Positions 2,472 to 17,945 of a stretch of DNA of 21,224 nucleotides are shown here, piece by piece. Position 1 is the first letter of the stretch. Every line of letters begins with the position of its first letter. The position numbers and the translations under genes are program-made. The notes under the pieces are model-generated. The model saw nothing but the letters and a program-made list of their open reading frames with translations. It made no database searches and had not been told where the DNA came from. This DNA is from a virus. The DNA lies in IMG/VR virus record IMGVR_UViG_3300033148_005474, positions 1-21,224 of that record. One strand, given 5' to 3'.

Positions 2472-3386
2472 ATGAAAAACGAGATTTCGATCGACATCGG
2501 TGGTGGCGTTATGATGGAGTTCGTTCGGATTCCCGCGGGCACCTTCCAGATGGGGAGCATGACGGGCTACACCAAGGATGACCAACCGGTCCATACGGTG
2601 AACATTACGAAGCCGTTCTACATGGCGAAGTATCCGTGCACGCAGGAACAGTGGGAACATCTCATGGGCTCGAATCCGAGTCACTTCATAGGCGATCTTC
2701 AGCGACCGGTCGATAGCGTATCGTATGACATGATAACGGAGAATGATGGCGTCCTCGTCAGGATGAACGCCTTGGGCCAGGGGACATTCAGATTGCCGAC
2801 GGAGGCGGAGTGGGAGTATGCGTGCAGGGCCGGTACGACAACGGATTATTACTGGGGCGACACGATGAACGGCGACTACTGTTGGTGTGATATCAACTCG
2901 GGTTCGGCGACCCATCCGGTCGGTCAGAAGTCGCCCAATTCATTCGGCCTCTATGACATGTGCGGCAATGTATTTGAATGGTGCCAAGATTGGTATGGAG
3001 AATCATATTACTCGGCATCGCCGATGAATGATCCGCAAGGCCCTGGATTGGGCTTGTGCCGCGTGATGCGTGGTGGTGGTTGGTACCACTACGCGCACCT
3101 CTGTCGTTCCGCCTCTCGCTACTTCCACACGCCGTTGTTCGCGAACGACGGCGGCGGCTTCCGCCTCGTAATGGATGTGCCGGAAGAAACCAAGACGGAG
3201 GAAGAACAAGTGAACAGACGCATATGGTATCGGCTTGTAAACAGTTTAGCATCTTACGAAGTACTGTGTGTAAGCAATAATTCCAGGATATGGGAAGCAG
3301 TGTCATGCCCAGGTTTACTGCAAGGAGTACATGATCGCGGATCTATCGGTGCGTCAGGATTAAAGGAGGGCGAGAAGAATATATGA
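2472..3386 (+). CDS. FGE/SUMF1-fold protein 1 with a DGR-like variable region and a damaged C-terminal tail
   Basis: The 304-residue product has an FGE-sulfatase (SUMF1, C-type-lectin-like) domain at residues 1-235. Landmarks are MEFVRIPAGTFQMGS, FRLPTEAEWEYACRAG, FGLYDMCGNVFEWCQDWYG and the end RVMRGGGW...GGGFRLV. In true FGE a Cys pair follows the GGS segment; here those places are Tyr/His, so catalysis is unlikely and a ligand-binding scaffold is more probable. Residues 192-232 (3045-3167) behave like a DGR variable region. After the Glu-rich linker (KTEEEQ) comes a piece of the tail domain seen complete at 5003 and 7023. A deletion then shifts the frame, so VYCKEYMIADLSV, still readable in another frame at 3313-3352, is translated as GLLQGVHDRG. 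The stop overlaps the next start by four bases. AAGGAGGGCGAG precedes ATG 2472. Confidence 0.85.
   Translation: MKNEISIDIGGGVMMEFVRIPAGTFQMGSMTGYTKDDQPVHTVNITKPFYMAKYPCTQEQWEHLMGSNPSHFIGDLQRPVDSVSYDMITENDGVLVRMNALGQGTFRLPTEAEWEYACRAGTTTDYYWGDTMNGDYCWCDINSGSATHPVGQKSPNSFGLYDMCGNVFEWCQDWYGESYYSASPMNDPQGPGLGLCRVMRGGGWYHYAHLCRSASRYFHTPLFANDGGGFRLVMDVPEETKTEEEQVNRRIWYRLVNSLASYEVLCVSNNSRIWEAVSCPGLLQGVHDRGSIGASGLKEGEKNI
3045..3167 (+). repeat. Variable region 1 (DGR-type) of FGE1
   Basis: The segment runs from the GGA codon after GGC-CCT to the CTC codon of GFRL. Compared with the same segment of FGE3 (offset 1787), codons 3069-3167 have no third-position change but nine first/second-position changes in seven codons (3114, 3120, 3123, 3126, 3135, 3138, 3144). 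All of these are in NNC, NNT or NNG codons. That is what adenine-specific mutagenesis of AAC/AAT/AAG template codons produces. The constant GC-rich end at about 3150-3167 would be the place for an initiation-of-mutagenic-homing signal. Confidence 0.65.
3197..3212 (+). promoter_or_regulatory. Internal ribosome binding site and GTG start for the tail domain of FGE1
   Basis: GGAGGAAGAACAA is followed by GTG 3210 in the same frame as FGE1. It is placed like the AAGGAGG/ATG pairs at 4988-5005 and 7008-7025. Here the downstream tail is broken, so any separate product would be a remnant. Confidence 0.45.
3197..3310 (+). repeat. 114-bp direct repeat, tail-domain fragment, copy 1
   Basis: This stretch reads identically to 4114-4227. 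It begins with the GGAGG of the internal ribosome binding site and covers the internal GTG 3210 and the start of the tail domain (NRRIWYRLVNSLASYEV). After the repeat, copy 1 has 32 extra bases (3311-3342) and the two copies then rejoin at CTATCGGTGCGTCAGG. Confidence 0.9.
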
Positions 3387-5317
3387 AAAAAGAGATTTCG
3401 ATCGACATCGGTGGTGGTGTCAGGATGGAATTCGTTCGGATTCCCGCTGGTACCTTCCAGATGGGGAGCACGCACGGTTATAGCAACGAAAAACCGGTCC
3501 ATACGGTGAACATTACGAAGCCGTTCTACATGGCGAAATACCCATGCACGCAGGCTCAGTGGGAACAGCTAATGGGTTCAAATCCTTCGAGCAGGTATGG
3601 AGTTGGCCCTAATTACCCCGTCCATGATGTATCATATAACATGATAACGGATACCATCGGCTTCATCGAGCGGATGAACGTCTTGGGCCAAGGCACATTC
3701 AGATTGCCGACGGAAGCTGAATGGGAGTATGCGTGCAGGGCGGGTACGACAACGGAATATTATTGGGGCGACACGATGAACGGCGACTACTGTTGGTGTG
3801 ATATCAACTCGGGTTCAACGACACATCCGGTTGGCCAGAAGATGCCAAATGCCTTCGGTCTTTATGACATGTGCGGCAATGTATATGAGTGGTGCCAAGA
3901 TTGGTATGGAGAATCATATTACTCGGTATCTCCGTTGGATGATCCACAAGGCCCTGTATCGTGCCTGTGCCGCGTGATGCGTGGTGGTGGTTGGCGTAGC
4001 TTTGCCTTTCACTGCCGAACCGCTTATCGCGGCTACTCAGGGTCGTTGAGAGCATTTTCCGGCCTGGGCTTCCGCCTCGTAATGGATGTGCCGGAAGATG
4101 AAGAAACCAAGAAGGAGGAAGAACAAGTGAACAGACGCATATGGTATCGGCTTGTAAACAGTTTAGCATCTTACGAAGTACTGTGTGTAAGCAATAATTC
4201 CAGGATATGGGAAGCAGTGTCATGCCCCTATCGGTGCGTCAGGATTAAAGGAGGTCGAAGAATGAAAGAAATTACGATTGATCTTGGCAATGGAGTAATA
4301 ATGGAGTTCGTTTTGATTCCCGCGGGCACCTTCCAGATGGGGAGCATGACGGGCTACACCAAGGATGACCAACCGGTCCATACGGTGAACATTACGAAGC
4401 CGTTCTACATGGCTAAGTACCCGTGCACGCAGGCTCAGTGGGAACAACTCATGGGCTCGAATCCTTCGTGTTTCAAGGGGAACCCTTCCCGACCGGTCGA
4501 TAGCGTATCGTATGACATGATAACGGAACCGGACGGCTTTATCGACAGGATGAATGAGCTTGGCCAGGGAACGTTCAGGTTGCCTACCGAGGCTGAATGG
4601 GAGTATGCGTGCAGAGCGGGCAGGACAACGGAATATTACTGGGGTAATACAATGAACGACGACTACTGCTGGTATCGCAGCAATGCAAATTCGAGGACCC
4701 ATCCGGTTGGGCAGAAACTGCCTAATTCATTTGGTCTTTATGATATGAGCGGCAATGTATGGGAATGGTGCCGGGATTGGTATGGTTCAACATATTATTC
4801 GGTATCTTCGTCAGATGATCCGAAAGGCCCTGGATTGGGCTCGTCCCGCGTGATACGTGGTGGTGGTTGGTACCACTACGCGCACCTCTGTCGTTCCGCC
4901 GTTCGCAACGACTACACGCCGTCGTCCGCGGACGACGGCGGCGGCTTCCGCCTCGTAATGGATGTACCGGAAGATGAAGAAACTAAGAAGGAGGAAGAAC
5001 ACATGAACAATATAGATATAACTGTTACGAGGTATCGTCTGATCAAGAATGAAGGTAAGTTTGAGCTGCATAAGAGCACAGGAGAACCTGCGCAGTGGCG
5101 CGCGGTTATCTGCGGAATGGATCGGGAACGGCTATGTGACTCGACATGTGCGTGGTTTTCGATTTCTGATAAACGAGTGTTCTGCAGAGACAGCGTGATC
5201 GCGGATCTATCGGTGTGCGAAGCGTGCGGTGGTACGGGTTATATCAGGATCCGATGCGCATGTACCGAGCAGCCGGTCCGTCCGAGCGAGGAGGGAATAC
5301 AAGATGAACATCGTTAA
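3383..5317 (+). CDS. Double FGE/SUMF1-fold fusion protein with C-terminal Cys-rich tail domain (FGE2-FGE3-tail)
   Basis: The 644-residue frame holds two FGE-sulfatase domains: residues 1-235 and 294-530, the second starting at an internal ATG 4262. Both carry the family landmarks (IPAGTFQMGS, RLPTEAEWEYACRAG, FGLYDM-GNVxEW, RVxRGGGW, GFRLV). Between them lies a fragment of the tail domain. Relative to FGE1 this joint lacks 32 bases (4227/4228), which shifts the frame past the stop used by FGE1 and opens it into FGE3. FGE3 still has its own AAGGAGG seven bases before ATG 4262, so separate translation is possible. Residues 541-644 form a complete tail domain with WRAVICG, CAWFSI and a zinc-binding-like CEACGGTGYIRIRCAC. 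No sulfatase is seen nearby and the FGE active-site Cys pair is absent, so a displayed or secreted binding protein is the better guess. No signal peptide is present. Confidence 0.85.
   Translation: MKKEISIDIGGGVRMEFVRIPAGTFQMGSTHGYSNEKPVHTVNITKPFYMAKYPCTQAQWEQLMGSNPSSRYGVGPNYPVHDVSYNMITDTIGFIERMNVLGQGTFRLPTEAEWEYACRAGTTTEYYWGDTMNGDYCWCDINSGSTTHPVGQKMPNAFGLYDMCGNVYEWCQDWYGESYYSVSPLDDPQGPVSCLCRVMRGGGWRSFAFHCRTAYRGYSGSLRAFSGLGFRLVMDVPEDEETKKEEEQVNRRIWYRLVNSLASYEVLCVSNNSRIWEAVSCPYRCVRIKGGRRMKEITIDLGNGVIMEFVLIPAGTFQMGSMTGYTKDDQPVHTVNITKPFYMAKYPCTQAQWEQLMGSNPSCFKGNPSRPVDSVSYDMITEPDGFIDRMNELGQGTFRLPTEAEWEYACRAGRTTEYYWGNTMNDDYCWYRSNANSRTHPVGQKLPNSFGLYDMSGNVWEWCRDWYGSTYYSVSSSDDPKGPGLGSSRVIRGGGWYHYAHLCRSAVRNDYTPSSADDGGGFRLVMDVPEDEETKKEEEHMNNIDITVTRYRLIKNEGKFELHKSTGEPAQWRAVICGMDRERLCDSTCAWFSISDKRVFCRDSVIADLSVCEACGGTGYIRIRCACTEQPVRPSEEGIQDEHR
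3956..4078 (+). repeat. Variable region 2 (DGR-type) of FGE2
   Basis: This is the same 41-codon segment as in FGE1, with no length change. Several of its bases upstream of RVMRGGGW differ from FGE1 only at first or second codon positions (GTA/GGA, TCG/TTG, TGC/GGC, CTG/TTG). The rest (TGG CGT AGC TTT GCC and on) also differs at third positions, so it is older than the FGE1/FGE3 pair or came from another template. Confidence 0.5.
4114..4227 (+). repeat. 114-bp direct repeat, tail-domain fragment, copy 2
   Basis: Identical to 3197-3310. It contains an in-frame internal GTG at 4127 after GGAGGAAGAACAA. The repeat ends at the exact point where a 32-base segment present in copy 1 is missing. Confidence 0.9.
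4248..4264 (+). promoter_or_regulatory. Ribosome binding site and ATG for separate translation of FGE3
   Basis: AAGGAGG at 4248-4254 is followed after seven bases by ATG 4262, in frame with the upstream FGE2. The corresponding site in FGE1 (AAAGGAGGGCGAG before ATG 3383) starts a separate gene, so this was probably the original start of an independent FGE3 gene before the frames fused. Confidence 0.6.
4832..4954 (+). repeat. Variable region 3 (DGR-type) of FGE3
   Basis: Colinear with variable region 1 at a constant offset of 1787. It is identical through 4856-4900, including the variable-looking codons TAC CAC TAC GCG CAC CTC. It then differs in codons 4901, 4907, 4910, 4913, 4922, 4925 and 4931, only at first and second positions. 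The encoded end is VRNDYTPSSADDGGGFRLV, against SRYFHTPLFANDGGGFRLV in FGE1. Confidence 0.65.
4988..5005 (+). promoter_or_regulatory. Internal ribosome binding site and ATG for the Cys-rich tail domain
   Basis: AAGGAGG at 4988-4994 lies eight bases before ATG 5003, in the same frame as FGE3. The bases also encode the linker residues KKEEE. The same arrangement at 7008-7025 argues that the tail domain can be made alone as a protein of about 104 residues as well as fused to the FGE domain. Confidence 0.55.
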
Positions 5318-5606: not shown

Positions 5607-5761
5607 TCAAGCGTTTGCTCAGATACCTTCTTGGTCGGCGGTGCGATATCTGCGGTGGCTGGCACGAGGTTATCCATGACCATGTTGACAAGGGGCGAGT
5701 CTGTTCGCTCTGCATGGTTACGCACTGGGCAGATGGCGGGGAAGTGGAGGTGAAGAAGTGA
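5603..5761 (+). CDS. Small zinc-ribbon protein, 52 residues
   Basis: The product has two Cys pairs, CDIC and CSLC, 18 residues apart, with His residues between them (GGWHEVIHDHVDKGRVC), which looks like a small zinc-binding domain. ATG 5603 overlaps the stop of the previous gene and follows GGGAGCGGGGAG. Its last 47 bases are copied at 6085-6131, where they follow an unrelated truncated gene. The role is unknown. Confidence 0.65.
   Translation: MIKRLLRYLLGRRCDICGGWHEVIHDHVDKGRVCSLCMVTHWADGGEVEVKK
5711..5757 (+). repeat. 47-bp direct repeat, copy 1 (end of zinc-ribbon gene)
   Basis: Matches 6085-6131 with one mismatch (C at 5730, T at 6104). In this copy it encodes the last 16 residues of the 52-residue zinc-ribbon protein. 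Confidence 0.9.
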
Positions 5762-6008
5762 TTGATTTATTCGGGAACGAAATACAAAACACTCCGACGA
5801 AAAAGAAGAAGAAGAAGGGATATTGGGATGAACCAGGGAGCGGCCCGGACGGAAAGCAATGTCGTGATTGTGTAAAACATATTTCAAATGTGAGCGTGTT
5901 CGTAAATTCTGGACCCATGGTCCTGGGACGGATATAAAAGCAACGGCACCAGCGTGTGCCGGATTCAAATGTAGAGAAGATAACCAGAAGGAGGACGTTG
6001 GCAAATGA
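5758..6008 (+). pseudogene. Frameshifted conserved small phage protein with CxxC and WTxGPGTDIKA motifs
   Basis: GTG 5758 overlaps the preceding stop and begins MIDLFGNEIQ, a Lys run, GYWDEPGSGPDGKQC and RDCVKHIS, then stops at 5935-5937. The -1 frame from about 5871 continues as KTYFKCERVRKFWTHGPGTDI, then KATAPACAGFKC, ending at TGA 6006. Small phage proteins of this type normally carry both halves in one frame, with roughly eight more residues between the two Cys motifs. A short deletion around 5869-5882 is the likely cause. As it stands the 59-residue product lacks the second Cys cluster. An assembly error is possible. Confidence 0.65.
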
Positions 6009-6106
6009 ATAAAAAAGATCATCTACCAATTGGGACCAAGGTTAGGATGAAACAGATATGTGTCAAGGAAATTACCGCTCACCCTGCATGGTTACGCACT
6101 GGGTAG
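6005..6106 (+). pseudogene. Truncated small phage gene cut at a repeat
   Basis: ATG 6005 has AAGGAGG ten bases upstream and encodes 33 residues starting MNKKDHLPIGTKVRMK. It reads normally until TAHPAW, where it enters the 47-bp repeat from the end of the zinc-ribbon gene and stops at TAG 6104. The single T/C difference in the repeat makes that stop. The original gene end appears to have been replaced by recombination. No function can be given. Confidence 0.45.
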
Positions 6107-6131
6107 ATGGCGGGGAAGTGGAGGTGAAGAA
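6085..6131 (+). repeat. 47-bp direct repeat, copy 2 (junction)
   Basis: A copy of 5711-5757 with one mismatch. It joins the truncated gene at 6005 to the 5'-truncated methyltransferase and ends just before ATG 6132. It marks a recombination point between duplicated zinc-ribbon gene ends. Confidence 0.85.
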
Positions 6132-6929
6132 ATGAGTCTATACATGCGACCGAAATATTGGGGCACCGAACGGTCTATGCCACTGATATCGACCAGAAAC
6201 GCTGCGATGTGTTGAGAAGAAGGATTGAGGAGGGGATGCTATATGAGTTCGATGTCGTCTGTTCTGACATCAAAAAACTTAGCCAGAAAGAAATACCTGA
6301 CGTGGATATCATCACAGCGGGCTTCCCTTGTCAGGATATTAGCACGGCTGGGCCGGGGCTTGGAGTCAAAGGAAAGCGAAGTGGACTCATTTGGGAATTG
6401 CTCAGAATTACCAAAGAAGCAAGAACGCCCATCGTCTTCCTTGAAAACTCTCCCGCTATTCGCGTGCGAGGCCGGAGAGAAATTATCCGATGGTTCGTGG
6501 AGAACGGATATTCCTGGAAAGACGGAACGCTTGCGGCCTCTGATGTCGGGGCGTTGCATCCTCGAAAACGATGGTGGCTCATTGCTGCCAACGCTGATGG
6601 TATCAGGAAATTACAACAGGAAAGGAGCATCAAAAACATCCGGAGATGGTTTATTCGCGAAAATTCGATATTTATCAACCCTAATGAAAAGCGATGCGCG
6701 GCGCGGTGGGATGATGCGAAGAAATTATCCGCGTCTGCCATATCAACTAAAGAAGGTTACTTGGATGATGGAACGCGGAAAGCTATCGGAATATCCGAAA
6801 GGTATACGAACATCAAAACTTGGAATAAATTTCAGCCCGGAATATTGCGAATGGTACATGGGGTGGCCCATAGGTTGGACCGCATAGAGATGTTGGGTGA
6901 TGGGATAGTTCCGATTCAATATGTAATGG

Positions 6930-7022
6930 CGTGGCTACAGCTCGCCGTCGGGCACGTACTACGGCGTCGGGTTCCGGCTCGTAATGGATGTGCCCGAAGA
7001 AACCGTGAAGGAGGAAGAAGAC
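6930..7022 (+). pseudogene. 3' stub of a fourth FGE gene with variable region 4
   Basis: In the frame of ATG 6984, bases 6930-6983 read RGYSSPSGTYYGVGFRLV and continue MDVPEETVKEEED. This is the end of an FGE domain plus the same linker as copies 1-3. All codons from 6933 to 6968 end in C or G (GGC TAC AGC TCG CCG and on), as expected of a DGR-mutated region. A TAA at 6924-6926 closes the frame directly upstream. The rest of the domain is replaced by the methyltransferase remnant. Confidence 0.7.
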
Positions 7023-7025
7023 ATG
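7008..7025 (+). promoter_or_regulatory. Ribosome binding site and ATG of the stand-alone tail gene
   Basis: AAGGAGG at 7008-7014 is eight bases before ATG 7023. It is embedded in the codons for KEEED, as at 4988-5005. Since the FGE part upstream is gone here, this site shows the tail domain can have its own start. Confidence 0.6.
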
Positions 7026-7337
7026 GACAACACGACCTCTGTTAAATATCGTCTTGTCGAGAATGCCGGCAAGTTCGAGCTGAATGTCAGCATGGGAGAG
7101 TCGACGGGGTGGCGCGTAGTTACATGTGGTCATAGGGAACGGATATGCAGCTCGGCTTGCGCGTGGTTCTCTATCCGCGACAACAAGGTTTACTGCAAGG
7201 ATTACATGATCGCGGATTTATCGGTGTGCGAAGCGTGCGGCGGTACCGGGTACATAAAGATCCCGTGCGCATGTACCGACCAGCCGGTCCGTCCGAGCGA
7301 GGAGCGGCGGACTATTGACGGGGATGACGAGAAATGA
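7023..7337 (+). CDS. Stand-alone Cys-rich tail-domain protein
   Basis: The 104-residue product is a paralogue of residues 541-644 of the FGE2-FGE3 fusion. Shared blocks are YRLV-N-GKFEL, WR-V-CG--RER-C, CAWFSI-D, YC/FC-D--IADLSV, CEACGGTGYI and CAC--QPVRPSEE. The CEACGGTGYIKIPCAC part resembles a DnaJ-type or rubredoxin-like zinc site. An ATG at 6984 in the same frame would add the FGE stub, but the ribosome binding site fits 7023. Its role is unknown; its constant pairing with FGE ends suggests it acts with, or as part of, the FGE proteins. Fragments of the same domain end FGE1 and FGE2. The coding end overlaps a strong promoter for the packaging genes. Confidence 0.7.
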   Translation: MDNTTSVKYRLVENAGKFELNVSMGESTGWRVVTCGHRERICSSACAWFSIRDNKVYCKDYMIADLSVCEACGGTGYIKIPCACTDQPVRPSEERRTIDGDDEK

Positions 7338-7614: not shown

Positions 7615-9612
7615 ATGGCAAAGCGCGTTAAGAAAGAACCTGGCCAGGAACTTCTAAACGACCACGAAGCACAGTTCCTGCTCAAGCAGCGCGGTGACCT
7701 GGCCGGATTCTTCGAGAATTTCCTCAAGATCAAGACCAAGGACGCGACGATCAAGAAGTTCAAACTCAACGTCGGACAAAGAATCGTTCAAGCCGGCTGG
7801 GAATATCAGATGCGCACACAGGGCTACGTGAGAATGATCATCCTCAAGGCGCGGCAGGGGCACGGATGTTCAACCCACGGCGCGGCGATCCTGTTCGCGA
7901 TGGGGCTCTTATACCGCAACACATCGTGCGTCATGGTAGCCGACAACGACGACAACGGAACGGTTCTTTTCGAGAAGCAGGCCCTTTTCTACGAGTCGCT
8001 TCCCCAAGTCATCGAATTGAAGTTCGAGGAATTGGGGGAATCATATCTCATCGATTTCAAGCCCAAGAAGAAGTATTCGACCAAACAGGAATTGGTCTTT
8101 GACATACTCAAGAGCGACATCAGGGTTCTAACGGCCGGGACCAAGCGCGTCGGTCAATCCCGAACCATACGGCACCAATGGTTGACAGAGGTCCCATACT
8201 GGCCTAACGACTCGGCCGCGTATACCTCGCTCACGAATGCCATGCCATCGTCGCCGAGCGCGATAAAGGGCACGTCGCTTGTGATGGAGGGAACCGCGAA
8301 CGGGATGCAGGGGATCTTCTATCACAGATGGAGGAAGCGCCGCGACGGGTTTCTTAGAATCTTCCTTCCGTGGTATCTCGCGGACGAGTTCATCCGCAAG
8401 GTACCCGATCCCGTGTACTGGCCGGAAGGCACAACCGAACTCATCTACGAGCAGGGAGAGCCAGACCTGGAATACTGGGATGGCGATACCGAGGCGGCCG
8501 ACGAGGAGCTTCAGCTCGCCCACATGAGCGCGGAAAAGATCAAGTCAGTCATCCTCCCGCGTGGAGAATTCAACCACGGAATCAAGATGGCCGGAATAAC
8601 GCCTGAACAACTCGCGTGGCGACGTTTCTGTATCGCCGAGCAGACAGAGACCCTCGACATGTTCCATCAGGAATATCCGTCTACCGCCGAGGAGGCCTGG
8701 CTTCATTCTGGCGCCCGCTTCATCAAGCCGAAGGATATCCTGTGGCACTCCAGGCTTGACAAGCCGGTGCCCATAAAGGGCGATCTGTATTACGTAAAAC
8801 TTGGCGGGGTTGTGTTCGTTCCAAGTGATATCGGCAATTGGACCATGTTCAACTACGACGTGACGGTCGACGACGGTGGCAAGAAGATATACCGACTAAA
8901 GGACACGCGCTTCGCGGTAGGGGTTGACGTGGTCGAGGGGCGTGACGCCGGGCTCGAGGCGGGGCGCGATTCGGATCTTGATTATTCGGTGGCGTATGTC
9001 GCTGGGGTAGAGACCAATAGCACGGCCATGATGTACCGGGCGAGATCGGAGACGGAAGACCTGGCTTCGGAACTGATGAAGCTTCGGAGGTTCTTGGGCG
9101 AGTTCAGGCTAAACATCGAGATCAACGGCCCTGGCTTGACGGTTCTCAATCGTCTGAAGCGAAAGGGATTCCCGATGACGCGCATAATGACACGTCTCAA
9201 GTTCGACAAGAAGGGGAATATCAAGAGCGAGGAATCAGTCGGATGGGTCATGACCCAGAACTATCGAAAGGTTATCTTCGACGAGCTGCGCGCGTTAGTC
9301 GCGGCGAGGCGACACAAGATCCTTAGTCCGGTCGTTCTTGAGGAACTTCAGACCCTCGTCCGCAATTCAGCCGGGCGGGTCGACCACATGAACGGCTGCC
9401 ACGATGACACATGTATCGCGCTTGGACTTGCGGCGATAACGATGAATTTCATGCCTGGGGCGCCCGAAACCAAAGCGAGGCACCTTCGGAGCAAGCCCGC
9501 CGGCGCTGATGCGGAGGGGCAAGCGAAGGCCCCCAGGAAAATGGGAGATTTCGAGCGAAACGGAATATTCGATGACGACGGAAAGAAAAGGATAATAAGA
9601 AGGAGGCTGTGA
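7615..9612 (+). CDS. Terminase large subunit (DNA packaging ATPase/nuclease)
   Basis: The 665-residue product is the packaging motor that cuts concatemeric DNA and pumps it into the prohead. ATPase signs are a Walker A-like KARQGHGCST at residues 78-87, a Walker B-like LTEVPYW with Glu192, and the coupling motif GTANGMQGIFYHRW. Nuclease signs are FAVGVDVVEG with Asp438, EINGPGLTVLNRLKRKG, and HDD at 596-598. Length is within the usual range, with a basic C-terminal tail. The Walker A region has one residue more than the usual K-A-R-Q-x-G-x-S-T. No separate small subunit is recognisable next to it. Start ATG 7615 follows a weak GGGGG; the next gene follows within five bases. Confidence 0.93.
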   Translation: MAKRVKKEPGQELLNDHEAQFLLKQRGDLAGFFENFLKIKTKDATIKKFKLNVGQRIVQAGWEYQMRTQGYVRMIILKARQGHGCSTHGAAILFAMGLLYRNTSCVMVADNDDNGTVLFEKQALFYESLPQVIELKFEELGESYLIDFKPKKKYSTKQELVFDILKSDIRVLTAGTKRVGQSRTIRHQWLTEVPYWPNDSAAYTSLTNAMPSSPSAIKGTSLVMEGTANGMQGIFYHRWRKRRDGFLRIFLPWYLADEFIRKVPDPVYWPEGTTELIYEQGEPDLEYWDGDTEAADEELQLAHMSAEKIKSVILPRGEFNHGIKMAGITPEQLAWRRFCIAEQTETLDMFHQEYPSTAEEAWLHSGARFIKPKDILWHSRLDKPVPIKGDLYYVKLGGVVFVPSDIGNWTMFNYDVTVDDGGKKIYRLKDTRFAVGVDVVEGRDAGLEAGRDSDLDYSVAYVAGVETNSTAMMYRARSETEDLASELMKLRRFLGEFRLNIEINGPGLTVLNRLKRKGFPMTRIMTRLKFDKKGNIKSEESVGWVMTQNYRKVIFDELRALVAARRHKILSPVVLEELQTLVRNSAGRVDHMNGCHDDTCIALGLAAITMNFMPGAPETKARHLRSKPAGADAEGQAKAPRKMGDFERNGIFDDDGKKRIIRRRL

Positions 9613-10171: not shown

Positions 10172-12337
10172 ATGCCGACGACGATACCGGAAAAATTCGA
10201 TGATGTTCGCGAAAGGGCGATAGAGATAGCCGAACCGGGCGATTCCGACAGCTCATCCTTGATACATGGGCAATATACCGAATTCGAGTTCATAACGTCG
10301 CAGCTCAACGATTTCGAGAATTGCTACAATTCCATCAACGGGCCGGATCCGAAGGCCGATGACTGGTGGGAATATTTCACCGGCGAAGCAGCGTCGAAGG
10401 TTGTCTTCGACCCGTCGTGGCAGAACGAGATCGACACGAATATCTGTGCCCCCCTCATCGAAACACAGGTCGGTCTGATAACGGCCGATTCCCAGTATGC
10501 GCGAAATAGAGGAAGGAACGCCACCGAAGATATCTGGGCATCTTTCAGAAGTGCGGCGGTGAATCAGATTCTAACGACGTACAACCAGTATCAGCGAATG
10601 CGCGTCAACTGGGTAAGGATGGCCAAGATATTCGATACCGGGTGGATCAAGGTCTACTTCGACGAACACGCGAAACGAACGAGGATCGAACTTCGCGACC
10701 CGCGGAACATCGCATTTGACCCTGGAGCCATGCGCGGCGACCTCGCGGACTGCGAATCGTTCTACGAGTTCGCGGTCAAGCCGATCGAGTACGTGCTTAA
10801 AAGATATCCGCGCGCTGCGGAGGAACTCAGCCTGGCCGACAAGCCTTCGAGCGGAAGCGGAGTCCGGGGAAACAAGGCGGCCGGATCGCTCGGGATCGAT
10901 AGCACTCATTCGGCGCCATGGGTCGAAGAGGTAATAGGATATGGCTTCGACCGCCGGAAATATGTCGCCCTGCTTGAGTGCTACAATGCGGTATACGAGA
11001 ATGACGGGAAGACCCGCAAAATATACCGGACGCTCATCGCTCGAAACATCATCCTCGAGGGGCCGGACCTCGTCGAGGAGGGCGTTATTCCGTACGTTCC
11101 CCAGCCGAACGTTGTAGGCGAAAACCTCACGTCTCAGGTCAAGGGCATATCGGATATCAAACTGATATACACCATCCAGGACGAGATCAACAGGACAATG
11201 ACAAGGATGTCAGCAATCGCCGAATTCGTCGGGAATCCCCGGGTCGTGGTAGTAAACGACTCGATCATTTACGAGAACGTCCACGAATACAACAACGCAC
11301 CTGGCGAAATATTCTCGGTTAATTCCATCAATGATATCAGGTTCGAATCGGGCGACGGTATCCATGGCGCGAACTTCGAGTATGTCAAGCTTCTCATCGA
11401 GCGTGCCGAGTCGATTCTTGGGATATTCGATGTCAGCCAGGGCCGGCGCGCGAAGAACATCGTTGCCGGCAAGGCGATCGCGAACCTCCAGGAAGCAGGG
11501 AAGACCAGGCCCAGGATGTTCCTTGACGTCCACAATGAATGCTTCGTGGTTCTCGTTCGGAAGATAATGCACTGCATCCGCCAGAATCACGACTTTGATG
11601 ACGTGGTGGCAATAGCCGGCTACGAGGGGCGCAAGCTCCGCGACCTTGTAACCACCCTGTTCGGTGGCGAGGGCTCGCTACAGGATTCCATGAACAAGGC
11701 CCAGGCCGAAATCCATAAGGGGCTTCTCGACATAAGCAGGGCCCCGAAACCGATTATCGAGTATGCCGGGGAGAGCGGGCCAACGATACCGACCGAAACA
11801 GGCGAACCGCTCGAACTGGATACCGGGAACAAGAAGATCTATTACTTCAAGTATCGCGGGAAGGAACTCTTCAAGGAACTCGACGATGAAATACTTGTCG
11901 AAGCGACGACGTACCTTCCAGACGACAAGGAAGCCAAGGCCGACATCTACATGAACCTTGCAAACATGCACGATAAGGAAGGCGACCCGGCCGTTGATTT
12001 CGAGGCGCTCCTCGATGCGCTGGGCATTCCAGACCGCAAGGAGATTCGCGAAAGAATCCAGGCCAAGAAGAACCTCGACGGACAGATGCAGCAGATGCAA
12101 CAAATGTTGCAGCAGCAAGGGCAGCAGATCGGCGAACTCGAGAAGATGCTTCAGGACCAGCAGCAGAAGGCCAACGAGGCGGTTGCAAACCTACAGAATA
12201 CTATCAGGGAGGTGACCGCTCAGCGCGACAAGGTGTCCAACGCATACGCGCGACATCTCGAGAAGATGAGCGGTGCGCCACTCAATAACATCGGGCAATC
12301 TCGCGATTCGGCGTCCCCGTTGAGGGCAACGCCATAA
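10172..12337 (+). CDS. Portal protein (P22-like podovirus type, tentative)
   Basis: The 721-residue product is of the right length and place for a large portal protein, the dodecameric ring through which DNA enters the head. Its N-terminal half, with DDWWEYFTGE, APLIETQVGLITADSQYARNR and LRDPRNIAFDPG, matches the general portal pattern of a partly conserved clip/wing region. The C-terminal part has a Gln-rich coiled coil at about residues 627-700 (QMQQMQQMLQQQGQQ), as in portals with a long barrel or crown. It lies between TerL and the scaffold. ATG 10172 has no ribosome binding site next to it; the nearest purine tract is about 30 bases upstream across the terminator hairpin. Other in-frame starts (TTG 10259) look no better. 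Calling the P22 subgroup is inference from length and neighbours. Confidence 0.8.
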   Translation: MPTTIPEKFDDVRERAIEIAEPGDSDSSSLIHGQYTEFEFITSQLNDFENCYNSINGPDPKADDWWEYFTGEAASKVVFDPSWQNEIDTNICAPLIETQVGLITADSQYARNRGRNATEDIWASFRSAAVNQILTTYNQYQRMRVNWVRMAKIFDTGWIKVYFDEHAKRTRIELRDPRNIAFDPGAMRGDLADCESFYEFAVKPIEYVLKRYPRAAEELSLADKPSSGSGVRGNKAAGSLGIDSTHSAPWVEEVIGYGFDRRKYVALLECYNAVYENDGKTRKIYRTLIARNIILEGPDLVEEGVIPYVPQPNVVGENLTSQVKGISDIKLIYTIQDEINRTMTRMSAIAEFVGNPRVVVVNDSIIYENVHEYNNAPGEIFSVNSINDIRFESGDGIHGANFEYVKLLIERAESILGIFDVSQGRRAKNIVAGKAIANLQEAGKTRPRMFLDVHNECFVVLVRKIMHCIRQNHDFDDVVAIAGYEGRKLRDLVTTLFGGEGSLQDSMNKAQAEIHKGLLDISRAPKPIIEYAGESGPTIPTETGEPLELDTGNKKIYYFKYRGKELFKELDDEILVEATTYLPDDKEAKADIYMNLANMHDKEGDPAVDFEALLDALGIPDRKEIRERIQAKKNLDGQMQQMQQMLQQQGQQIGELEKMLQDQQQKANEAVANLQNTIREVTAQRDKVSNAYARHLEKMSGAPLNNIGQSRDSASPLRATP

Positions 12338-14230: not shown

Positions 14231-15166
14231 ATGGCAGTACTTATAAAGTCTATGTTTCCGGATTCTCTTACCGTCGATATCCGGATGTACTTCGATGAGA
14301 CGTACAACGAGTATTATGAGCGCGAGATGGCTCGTCTCAAGCAGTTCGTGAAGTTCGATACCACGGGCAAGAAGGACGAAACCTATTCCGGAATGGGCGG
14401 CGTTGGAGACCTCGAGGAGTACAACGGCTCGGTCAACTACGAGCGCGTGTACGAGGGGTACGATACCACCCTTGCGGTGTATACATTCGCGAAGGGGCTC
14501 GAGATCGACCTCGAACTGATTGAGGATGATCTTCAGAAGAAGATCGAAGCGAAGCCGCGCGAATATGCCAAGGCGGCGGTCCGAACGCTGGTGAAGAACT
14601 TCATCAGCGACATCTTCGAAGATGGTAATGCGGCGCTTCCGAAATTCCAGAGCGGTGGCGATGGTCAGACGGCTCTATTCGCTTCGGCTCATCCCTCTAC
14701 GGTTCCGGGCGTGGCGACTCAGAGCAACGTGAGCACGAACTCCCTCACGCTCGATAACTTCTGGTCGGCGTACAACGCGATGCGTGAGTTCAAGAACCTC
14801 GATGGCGAGATGATTGACGGCGAGCCTGATATCCTCGTCACCGGGATTGCGCTTGAGCGAACGGCGTACAACATCCTATACACGGCTCACGAGCCTGGCT
14901 CGAGCGACTGGAACGCCAACGCATTCGACCAGAAGACGGGCAAGATCAAGATCAAGCCCATTGTCCTACCGCACATATCCGGTAATAAGTGGTTCCTGAT
15001 CAACTCGACGATCGCCAAGGAGCGGCTTATCGTGCTTGAGCGTATCAAGGCCAAGCTTCACAAGATGGCTAATGTCGATTCGTTCTCGCTCAAGTTCGCG
15101 GCGCGTGCGCGGTGGGCCTATGGATTCACCGACTGGCGCTGGGGCTACGGCAACTACCCGACGTAA
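14231..15166 (+). CDS. Major capsid protein, Mu gpT-like (HK97 fold)
   Basis: The 311-residue product matches the Mu-like major head subunit family. Key blocks are an early helix (MYFDETYNEYYEREMARL), VYEGYDTTLAVYTFAKGLEI, DLELIEDDL, then GDGQTALFASAHPS (family: dG..LFs..HP), and the C-terminal domain AARARWAYGFTDWRW. Length agrees with the family. It forms the icosahedral shell. A strong GGAGGAGGTGAG lies before ATG 14231. There is no sign of an N-terminal delta domain, consistent with a separate scaffold upstream. Confidence 0.85.
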   Translation: MAVLIKSMFPDSLTVDIRMYFDETYNEYYEREMARLKQFVKFDTTGKKDETYSGMGGVGDLEEYNGSVNYERVYEGYDTTLAVYTFAKGLEIDLELIEDDLQKKIEAKPREYAKAAVRTLVKNFISDIFEDGNAALPKFQSGGDGQTALFASAHPSTVPGVATQSNVSTNSLTLDNFWSAYNAMREFKNLDGEMIDGEPDILVTGIALERTAYNILYTAHEPGSSDWNANAFDQKTGKIKIKPIVLPHISGNKWFLINSTIAKERLIVLERIKAKLHKMANVDSFSLKFAARARWAYGFTDWRWGYGNYPT

Positions 15167-16527: not shown

Positions 16528-17214
16528 ATGACATACGATGAATATCTGAACGAGATCGGAGGGTGGTTGAAAGATCCCTCCCTTTCTCGCACGAAGGACC
16601 TCGTCGGCGGGGCGGGCATCGACAACTACATCAACAACGCCAGGCGGGAGGTTGCCCGCCTTCTGTATAGTTTGGACGGGCACGACACATTCACAACCAC
16701 GGCCGACCAGGAAACCTATTCGCTTCCAGACAATCTGTGGATAATCGAAGAGGTCGTTTACGATTGGCCCAACCGGCGGCCGTTGACGCAACTCTACACA
16801 GCCAACGATTACTATCAGTACTACACCGAGACGTCGGGAACGCCACAATATTACTGGCTGCGGCGCGACGATATACAGGTGGGCTCAAACGCGGGGACGA
16901 AGAAGCTGTTTCTCGTCCCGACACCAGACACGAGCAGCGTTACATGCCGGCGGGATTACTGGATGCTTCCGGCTGACATAGACTCCAGCAACCAGACATG
17001 CGACCTCCCGACGGACCACGATCACGTTGCGGCGCTCTACGCGGCCACCTTGCTAGCGTCGCGCGCCGGTGATGACCGGAGGGCCGAGAAACTCGATCGG
17101 CTCGTCAGCGACATGATGCACGCGCGGAGGGTCGATAGAAATGCCCGTGCCGGGAAAGCGCGATCGATTCGTCCGTGGTATACCGCCCGGAAGGGGAGGT
17201 TGTACAGAAGATGA
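16528..17214 (+). CDS. Head-tail adaptor protein (gp4/gp6-like)
   Basis: The 228-residue product has the pattern of phage adaptors that dock under the portal: a short helical N-terminus (YDEYLNEIGGWLKDP), DNYINNARREVARLLYS (family: W.N.A...va), a beta region (TFTTTADQETYSLPDNLW), and a C-terminal helical hairpin (DHDHVAALYAATLLASRAGDDRRAEKLDRL) with a basic tail. It is followed by a paralogue that starts inside its stop codon (ATGA). The role is to seal the head and connect it to the tail. Confidence 0.75.
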   Translation: MTYDEYLNEIGGWLKDPSLSRTKDLVGGAGIDNYINNARREVARLLYSLDGHDTFTTTADQETYSLPDNLWIIEEVVYDWPNRRPLTQLYTANDYYQYYTETSGTPQYYWLRRDDIQVGSNAGTKKLFLVPTPDTSSVTCRRDYWMLPADIDSSNQTCDLPTDHDHVAALYAATLLASRAGDDRRAEKLDRLVSDMMHARRVDRNARAGKARSIRPWYTARKGRLYRR

Positions 17215-17945
17215 AGCGAGTAAGTCATGATTCGGCGTTCGGGATTCTTGTGGCATGTTCAGCGTGGGCCTTTCTGTGTCTCGGCCTGTGTCTGTGCGGC
17301 CCTGCAAGTGGAATGTCTCGCTCTGACATGCGCGAGGATGTCCGCGATTTGATAGCGGAAGAGAGCACGGCCTACATCACCGATGCAGAACTGAACCGAT
17401 GGATCAACCGGGGACAGTATGAGGTCGCGCTACTACTCACGGAAGACCTGCTATGGGAACTGTCCGCGAGTTCTACAGAGGAGATCACGATAGGGAAAAG
17501 CGAGTATTCCATCCCATCCGACATGCTGCGGATAGTGAACATGCATACAGACACTTACGAGGTTAACGTGGTGTTCTCGAGCCACGGGCCGCGATACCGA
17601 CTCAACACATCGTTCAATTCGGACCAGACGAAGCCGACCGCCTACATCCAAGGCAATTCGATTCTGGTCTACCCGGCCAGCACGAGCGCCGGAACGATGA
17701 CGATCTTCTACACCAAGCGGCCTTCGGAGATGGCGACGGACGCGGCTACGCCTGATCTCAATCTGGTTCTCCATGACTTGATAGTGTATTACGCTGGTTC
17801 AAAGGCGGCGATCAAGATACGTGACTATGGGATGGCGCAGACACTTCAGCGGATGTTTTACGAGAAGATCAAGTTCCTGAACCAGCGCTTCCCGGGCAAG
17901 AACAAACAGGAGGAGCCGATCACAAATGGAACCCAGACTCGTTGA
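17211..17945 (+). CDS. Second adaptor-like protein with an N-terminal signal/membrane segment
   Basis: The 244-residue product is an adaptor paralogue from about residue 35 on: MSRSDMREDVRDLIAEEST, then TDAELNRWINRGQYEVA, ITIGKSEYSIPSDMLRI and a helical C-terminus. The first 34 residues are a hydrophobic leader (FGILVACSAWAFLCLGLC) with a signal-peptide shape. ATG 17211 has GGGGAGG about ten bases upstream, while the ATG at 17313, which would give an ordinary adaptor without the leader, has no such site. A virion adaptor with an export signal is odd. It overlaps the previous stop as ATGA. Confidence 0.7.
   Translation: MKRVSHDSAFGILVACSAWAFLCLGLCLCGPASGMSRSDMREDVRDLIAEESTAYITDAELNRWINRGQYEVALLLTEDLLWELSASSTEEITIGKSEYSIPSDMLRIVNMHTDTYEVNVVFSSHGPRYRLNTSFNSDQTKPTAYIQGNSILVYPASTSAGTMTIFYTKRPSEMATDAATPDLNLVLHDLIVYYAGSKAAIKIRDYGMAQTLQRMFYEKIKFLNQRFPGKNKQEEPITNGTQTR

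Follow-up and report, generated by a model that had tools for sequence, protein, structure and literature searches.

Which process wrote the 3′ ends of the formylglycine-generating-enzyme-like (FGE) genes on a viral DNA of 21,224 bp, where two gene ends differ at first and second codon positions only? We analysed the complete IMG/VR record IMGVR_UViG_3300033148_005474 (the window), a linear fragment of an incomplete virus genome. Diversity-generating retroelements (DGRs) possess a template repeat (TR), from which a reverse transcriptase (RT) makes cDNA that is erroneous at adenines; this cDNA takes the place of the 3′ end of a gene for a C-type-lectin-fold binding protein. We assign a probability of roughly 0.68 to the reading that the ends of FGE1, FGE3 and a relic, FGE4, are variable regions (VRs) of a DGR. 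We read them in this way from sequence comparison, because of a third-base mask, the positions of the differences, a check on FGE4, control gene pairs and the nearest homologues, which are DGR targets. The features concerned are the following.

2472–3386, plus strand: FGE1, an FGE-sulfatase (C-type-lectin-like) domain with a fused C-terminal tail (Pfam PF03781, E=4.7e-46)
3081–3164, plus strand: VR1, candidate variable region W..GFR of FGE1, WYHYAHLCRSASRYFHTPLFANDGGGFR; 9/9 differences to VR3 on template adenines of the homologous DGR L002, third letters C/T/G much like L002
3383–4261, plus strand: FGE2, an FGE-sulfatase domain (PF03781, E=9.7e-47), with no stop before FGE3 (open reading frame (ORF) 3383–5317)
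3992–4075, plus strand: FGE2 end corresponding to the VR, hypervariable against FGE1, third-base mask not followed
4262–5317, plus strand: FGE3, an FGE-sulfatase domain with a fused cysteine-rich tail (PF03781, E=1.4e-49; best PDB match TvpA, 2y3c)
4868–4951, plus strand: VR3, candidate variable region of FGE3, WYHYAHLCRSAVRNDYTPSSADDGGGFR
6930–6977, plus strand: FGE4 relic, the final 16 codons of a putative fourth VR, RGYSSPSGTYYGVGFR; 5′ part lost at a methylase gene

We determined differences per codon position, written as position 1/2/3, from a codon alignment of FGE1 (2472–3386) and FGE3 (4262–5317). The 33 codons at 3069–3167 and 4856–4954 differ by 5/4/0, all within seven codons, exactly the nine first- and second-position differences that an earlier, sequence-only reading of this DNA had reported. 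For about 41 upstream codons that reading had given about 16 third-position differences; we count 18 (2/3/18 over 41 codons from 2760). The comparison yields 25/27/61 for the 203 codons that precede the VR and 12/14/22 for the 40 that follow it. Third-position differences number 0/33 in the tract against 57/180 in six upstream 30-codon bins (Fisher p=2e-5), and the 9:0 split between positions 1+2 and position 3 compares with 43:57 elsewhere (p=9e-4), both values applying to a pattern that was chosen for its striking look. Directly upstream of the 33 codons lie three more differences (TTG/TCG, TGC/TCC and ATG/ATA), one of them at a third position, and five variable codons 5′ of a conserved CRSA are identical in the two genes.

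Such a tract could arise with no DGR, if gene conversion equalised both ends and diversifying selection on exposed loops then fixed nine amino-acid-altering nucleotide changes. The 9:0 split by itself is not extreme if synonymous change has merely been rare since the conversion; the variable codons are exposed positions of the fold, and the contig lacks both RT and template. What bears on the choice is where the differences fall relative to a DGR template. We used the templates of other FGE-type DGRs, which are proxies from homologous systems, not the window phage's own template. Among the FGE3 relatives, one of 50 searched IMG/VR records carries an RT, IMGVR_UViG_3300009431_001055 (L002), and a de novo scan gave a TR/VR pair with 18 mismatches, 18/18 at template adenines (L002/L080, with RT, TR and VR). 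The L002 template, WNNNPQNCRSANRNNNTPDNRNNNIG, aligns to VR1 and VR3 without gaps, and every one of the nine FGE1/FGE3 differences lies on one of its adenines, which occupy 29 of the 84 bases (p=2.7e-5; p=9e-4 for positions 1+2 only). At codon 19 the L002 template reads GAC, with A only at position 2, and the window genes differ only at position 2 (TTG/TCG). VR1 and VR3 are identical at every base except the template-adenine sites; by this proxy, substitutions are found at template-adenine sites only.

The third letters of the template-A codons are CCCCCTCCCGGCCCCC in VR1 and VR3 and CCTGCTCCCGCCCCCC in the L002 template, a match that includes the T of the AAT codon preceding the conserved arginine; the excess of C at these letters has p=1.3e-5 against a background of 27.6%. 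In a second viral FGE-type DGR, L100, all 26 TR/VR mismatches lie at A, and 8/9 of the window differences fall on its adenines. This DGR (L100 2496–4330, also L101) adjoins a tape-measure-like gene, with the RT at 3236–4225 and the TR at about 4207–4330. Two features speak against selection after gene conversion: the differences coincide with template adenines and spare position 1 of codon 19, and the third bases follow a distant template in their use of C and T.

The FGE4 relic, a copy that the sequence-only reading had not used, provides an independent check of the mask. Against FGE3, its ten template-A codons show 11 first- and second-position differences and 0/10 third-position differences, and 3/6 of the remaining codons differ at the third position. 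The mask was kept although the other codons drifted. As controls we took ordinary FGE pairs from rhizobial plasmids (Sinorhizobium, Rhizobium, Neorhizobium); over the same 27 codons they differ, for example, by 1/0/10, 0/0/9, 0/0/18 and 4/2/17. Ordinary FGE tails change mostly at third positions, the opposite of the FGE1/FGE3 pattern. Together with adenine placement and homologues that are DGR targets, these comparisons bear out the DGR signature that had been claimed, and they make the explanation by conversion and selection improbable.

FGE2 behaves differently. Its end at 3956–4078 had been grouped with those of FGE1 and FGE3, a grouping that we do not uphold. Against FGE1 it differs by 12/14/12 inside the 27 VR codons (38/81 bases) and by 0/1/0 in the 40 codons after the VR (1/120 bases), so that nearly identical flanks enclose a sharply bounded hypervariable segment. 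FGE1 resembles FGE2 after the VR and FGE3 inside it; it is therefore a mosaic, an FGE2-like gene whose end is of the FGE3 type. As a sequence without the third-base mask, FGE2 can serve as an internal negative control.

The mosaic brings recombination into play. Homologous recombination could have brought in VRs of DGR origin from VR genes of a host, plasmid or co-infecting phage, with no retrohoming in this lineage. The mosaic structure of FGE1, whose flanks resemble FGE2 and whose end resembles FGE3, agrees with such import, as do the unrelated FGE2 VR between near-identical flanks, the many RT-less phages whose FGE VRs match host templates, and a VR that can stay fixed while its gene drifts (L060 against L056, below). 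We consider this origin unlikely, if less so than conversion with selection: VR1 and VR3 share all bases other than those at template adenines as well as five variable codons, and their last changes look for this reason like mutation confined to adenine sites, not like import of a different allele. Chimeric assembly of near-identical FGE copies, with the FGE1 or FGE3 tract coming from another copy or strain, would also yield a mosaic FGE1 in a metagenome contig with three copies and long similar segments. The two ends are distinct alleles, however, and a chimera would explain their placement but neither the template-adenine-limited differences nor the FGE4 mask; we regard an artefact as very improbable.

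Several results weigh against a DGR origin of these ends. (i) Neither RT nor template lies in the 2.4 kb upstream of FGE1 or the 16 kb downstream of FGE3, the usual places in a canonical cassette. (ii) Exact patterns of the window's own template (core) and of the 3′ flank found no match in IMG/VR and 84,980 genomes. (iii) FGE2 was rejected as a third DGR-marked copy, having no third-base mask and no enrichment of C (p=0.26). (iv) The adenine positions of the proxy templates coincide with exposed, variable positions of the fold. (v) The five identical variable codons in the 5′ half would not be produced by two independent full-length retrohoming events.

The sequence-only reading had proposed a search of the contig for a DGR-type RT and a template repeat, and neither is present within the 21,224-bp incomplete record. 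There is no RVT_1 match in it, tblastn with three DGR RTs revealed no RT remnant, and no template repeat was found in the window. A TR for the window VRs would be expected to match TGGNNCNNCNNCGCGNNCNNCTGTCGTTCCGCCNNTCGCNNCNNCNNC. A repeat at 6937–7045 was rejected as template, being coding FGE sequence whose variable codons carry various bases instead of A. No Avd-type Pfam match was obtained among the scanned window ORFs. 3′ of the VR, the DNA has a GC-rich GGCGGCGGC..CGCCTCG end, and hairpins after the VR do not exceed the strength found in shuffled DNA. In L002, L100 and the Prosthecochloris plasmid pPAES01, the distance from the RT to a VR gene is at most about 1 kb. As the window, an incomplete record, has no RT, RT remnant or template, it shows what are probably DGR target components and not a complete DGR.

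Under a DGR origin, the VR ends of the window would most likely have been written by adenine-mutagenic retrohoming. In a first stage, gene conversion or retrohoming from a common template would have given FGE1 and FGE3 one shared tract, as is needed to explain why VR1 and VR3 agree in their first half; a rewriting confined to the 3′ half of one copy would then have followed. In DGRs, cDNA synthesis starts on the 3′ side, and a 3′-sided polarity of rewriting would fit this biology. The partial, recent, 3′-initiated retrohoming proposed earlier is compatible with the shared 5′ codons and the divergent 3′ half, but its recency, partiality and 3′ start are matters that we infer, and gene conversion is also needed. 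RT and template would reside either in the missing part of the phage genome or in a host or co-resident element that supplies them in trans. By analogy with Microcystis phages, the window FGE genes might be a detached VR array without an RT of its own, rewritten in trans by a host or host-plasmid DGR, a proposal that we put forward tentatively and hold to be doubtful.

Many freshwater phage contigs among the relatives have FGE ends of the form TGG NNC NNC NNT CC. NNT NNC TGC CGT TCC ... and no RT, in records of up to 107 kb. In near-identical FGE genes of these phages, most differences fall on first and second codon positions of the VR (L047 against L052, for instance, gives 8/8/1). Tandem FGE arrays of up to six genes with differing DGR-type VRs occur in the freshwater phages L063, L067, L068 and L073–L078, with no RT in the searched records.

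A pattern based on the mask matched two cyanobacterial genomes, both of which contain a real cellular DGR, and more templates were found in related genomes. One of these, plasmid p1FD4 of Microcystis aeruginosa FD4 (G463/L115), carries annotated Avd, RT and FGE genes and, beside the RT, a template on the minus strand (NZ_CP046974.1:26813-26920). The IMG/VR contig L060 is syntenic with Microcystis phage Ma-LMM01 and 88.9% identical over 1,630 aa to MaMV-CH01. We compared the FGE genes of these phages, in which no RT was detected; the genes lie as follows.

8309–9388 of L060: FGE gene
2950–3780 of Ma-LMM01 (L103): FGE gene
5980–6780 of MaMV-CH01 (L081): FGE gene

Over 108 matched bases, the L060 VR differs from the p1FD4 template at 12 sites, 12/12 at adenines; the Ma-LMM01 VR shows 18 differences at adenines and 3 elsewhere. 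Between Ma-LMM01 and MaMV-CH01, the FGE gene differs by 13/6/17 in the 241 codons outside the VR and by 9/8/4 in the 25 VR codons. No RVT_1 match exists in the 171-kb MaMV-CH01 record, which is complete. Two observations weigh against continuous diversification: the FGE protein is identical in five MaMV isolates, and the VRs of L060 and L056 differ by one base while the gene drifts. Episodic action of a host DGR in trans would fit these sequences, and so would recombination with host VR genes; some phage genes may have been diversified by the host element or acquired from it. We found no paper tying these Microcystis phages to DGRs, and the trans action that we found described takes place within cellular genomes.

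DGR surveys start at the RT, and targets distant from the RT go undetected, as pointed out by Roux et al. (PMC8144416). The window would be an example of this kind: it is phage DNA on which several VR genes lie without an adjacent RT or template. The Microcystis comparison makes the idea testable, as phage VRs there match a host-plasmid template at non-adenine bases. If a host DGR is indeed used in trans, targeted hypermutation would be a resource common to phage and host, and phages whose receptor-binding or decoy proteins diversify would be more numerous than estimated.

The window is a piece of a tailed-phage genome, of which a large share appears to be missing. Beyond the FGE genes it contains the following features.

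1600–2181: M15-type endolysin
6158–7045, plus strand: C5-cytosine DNA methylase, 3′ end overlapping the FGE4 relic (PF00145, E=6e-29)
6984–7337, plus strand: ORF for a cysteine-rich tail that follows the FGE4 relic and is paralogous to the FGE3 tail (173-nt direct repeat 5121–5293 / 7132–7304, 79%)
7615–9612: terminase-like protein
10172–12337: P22/SU10-like portal
14231–15166: major head protein
16528–17214 and 17175–17945: two adjacent SU10-type adaptor paralogues (PF24175, E about 1e-20 each)
To the window end and past it: long fibre-like ORF

IMG/VR queries with the portal, the terminase and the tail ORF returned no relatives, and there is therefore no closer phage genome to inspect. For the head protein and the terminase, phage records contain distant relatives only, and no IMG/VR record near-identical to the window was found. 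Upstream of the methylase gene, by which FGE4 is truncated, a 57-nt direct repeat (93%) at 5705–5761 / 6079–6135 is a possible trace of the recombination that introduced this gene. AAGGAGG..ATG stands at 4985–5006, in frame within FGE3, and at 7010–7024, past the FGE4 relic; judged from these motifs, the cysteine-rich tail may be made both in fusion and as a separate translation product.

At the protein level, the best solved structure by sequence is Treponema denticola TvpA (PDB 2y3c, E=3.4e-34), which is also the first fold match of an AlphaFold model of moderate confidence (predicted local distance difference test, pLDDT, 70). As in DGR targets, the VR ends the FGE domain of a C-type-lectin-fold protein (PF03781) and an in-frame tail follows. 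In the GGSHLC...YCxRYR pair of ordinary FGEs, the first cysteine is replaced here by a variable residue (H in FGE1 and FGE3, S in FGE2), which makes an enzymatic function unlikely; FGE1–FGE3 keep only the second cysteine of the active-site pair. Their probable role is ligand binding, at a surface or on the virion, and not formylglycine generation.

Among known systems, the formylglycine-generating enzyme itself (FGE/SUMF1) has the same Pfam family, PF03781, and fold, but the cysteine pair is incomplete in the window. TvpA is a C-type-lectin-fold DGR variable protein, although a cellular protein of a cellular DGR. The L002 DGR has a 46% identical FGE target, a W..GFR VR of the same length, and template adenines at the sites of FGE1/FGE3 difference; unlike the window, which has neither RT nor TR, it is a compact cassette in which both adjoin the VR. 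The best plasmid relative is a 51% identical target on pPAES01 of Prosthecochloris aestuarii DSM 271, in an FGE-avd-RT-FGE locus with annotated Avd and RT, two FGE genes, and GCG and AAT codons placed alike in the template. Adenine-limited TR/VR pairs were found on this plasmid. In contrast to the window it carries a complete cassette, and a segment that both VRs contain is missing from its TR at L114 5149–5240 (WNNDARNLRSANRNNN-LGFR against ...NNSPGSRDDVLGFR); this template is possibly decayed. Cyanobacterial and Thiohalocapsa DGRs have remote variable-protein genes far from the RT, some attributed to activity in trans (PMC7517822, PMC10907252); those genes share a cellular genome with their RT, whereas the candidate VR array of the window is borne by a phage.

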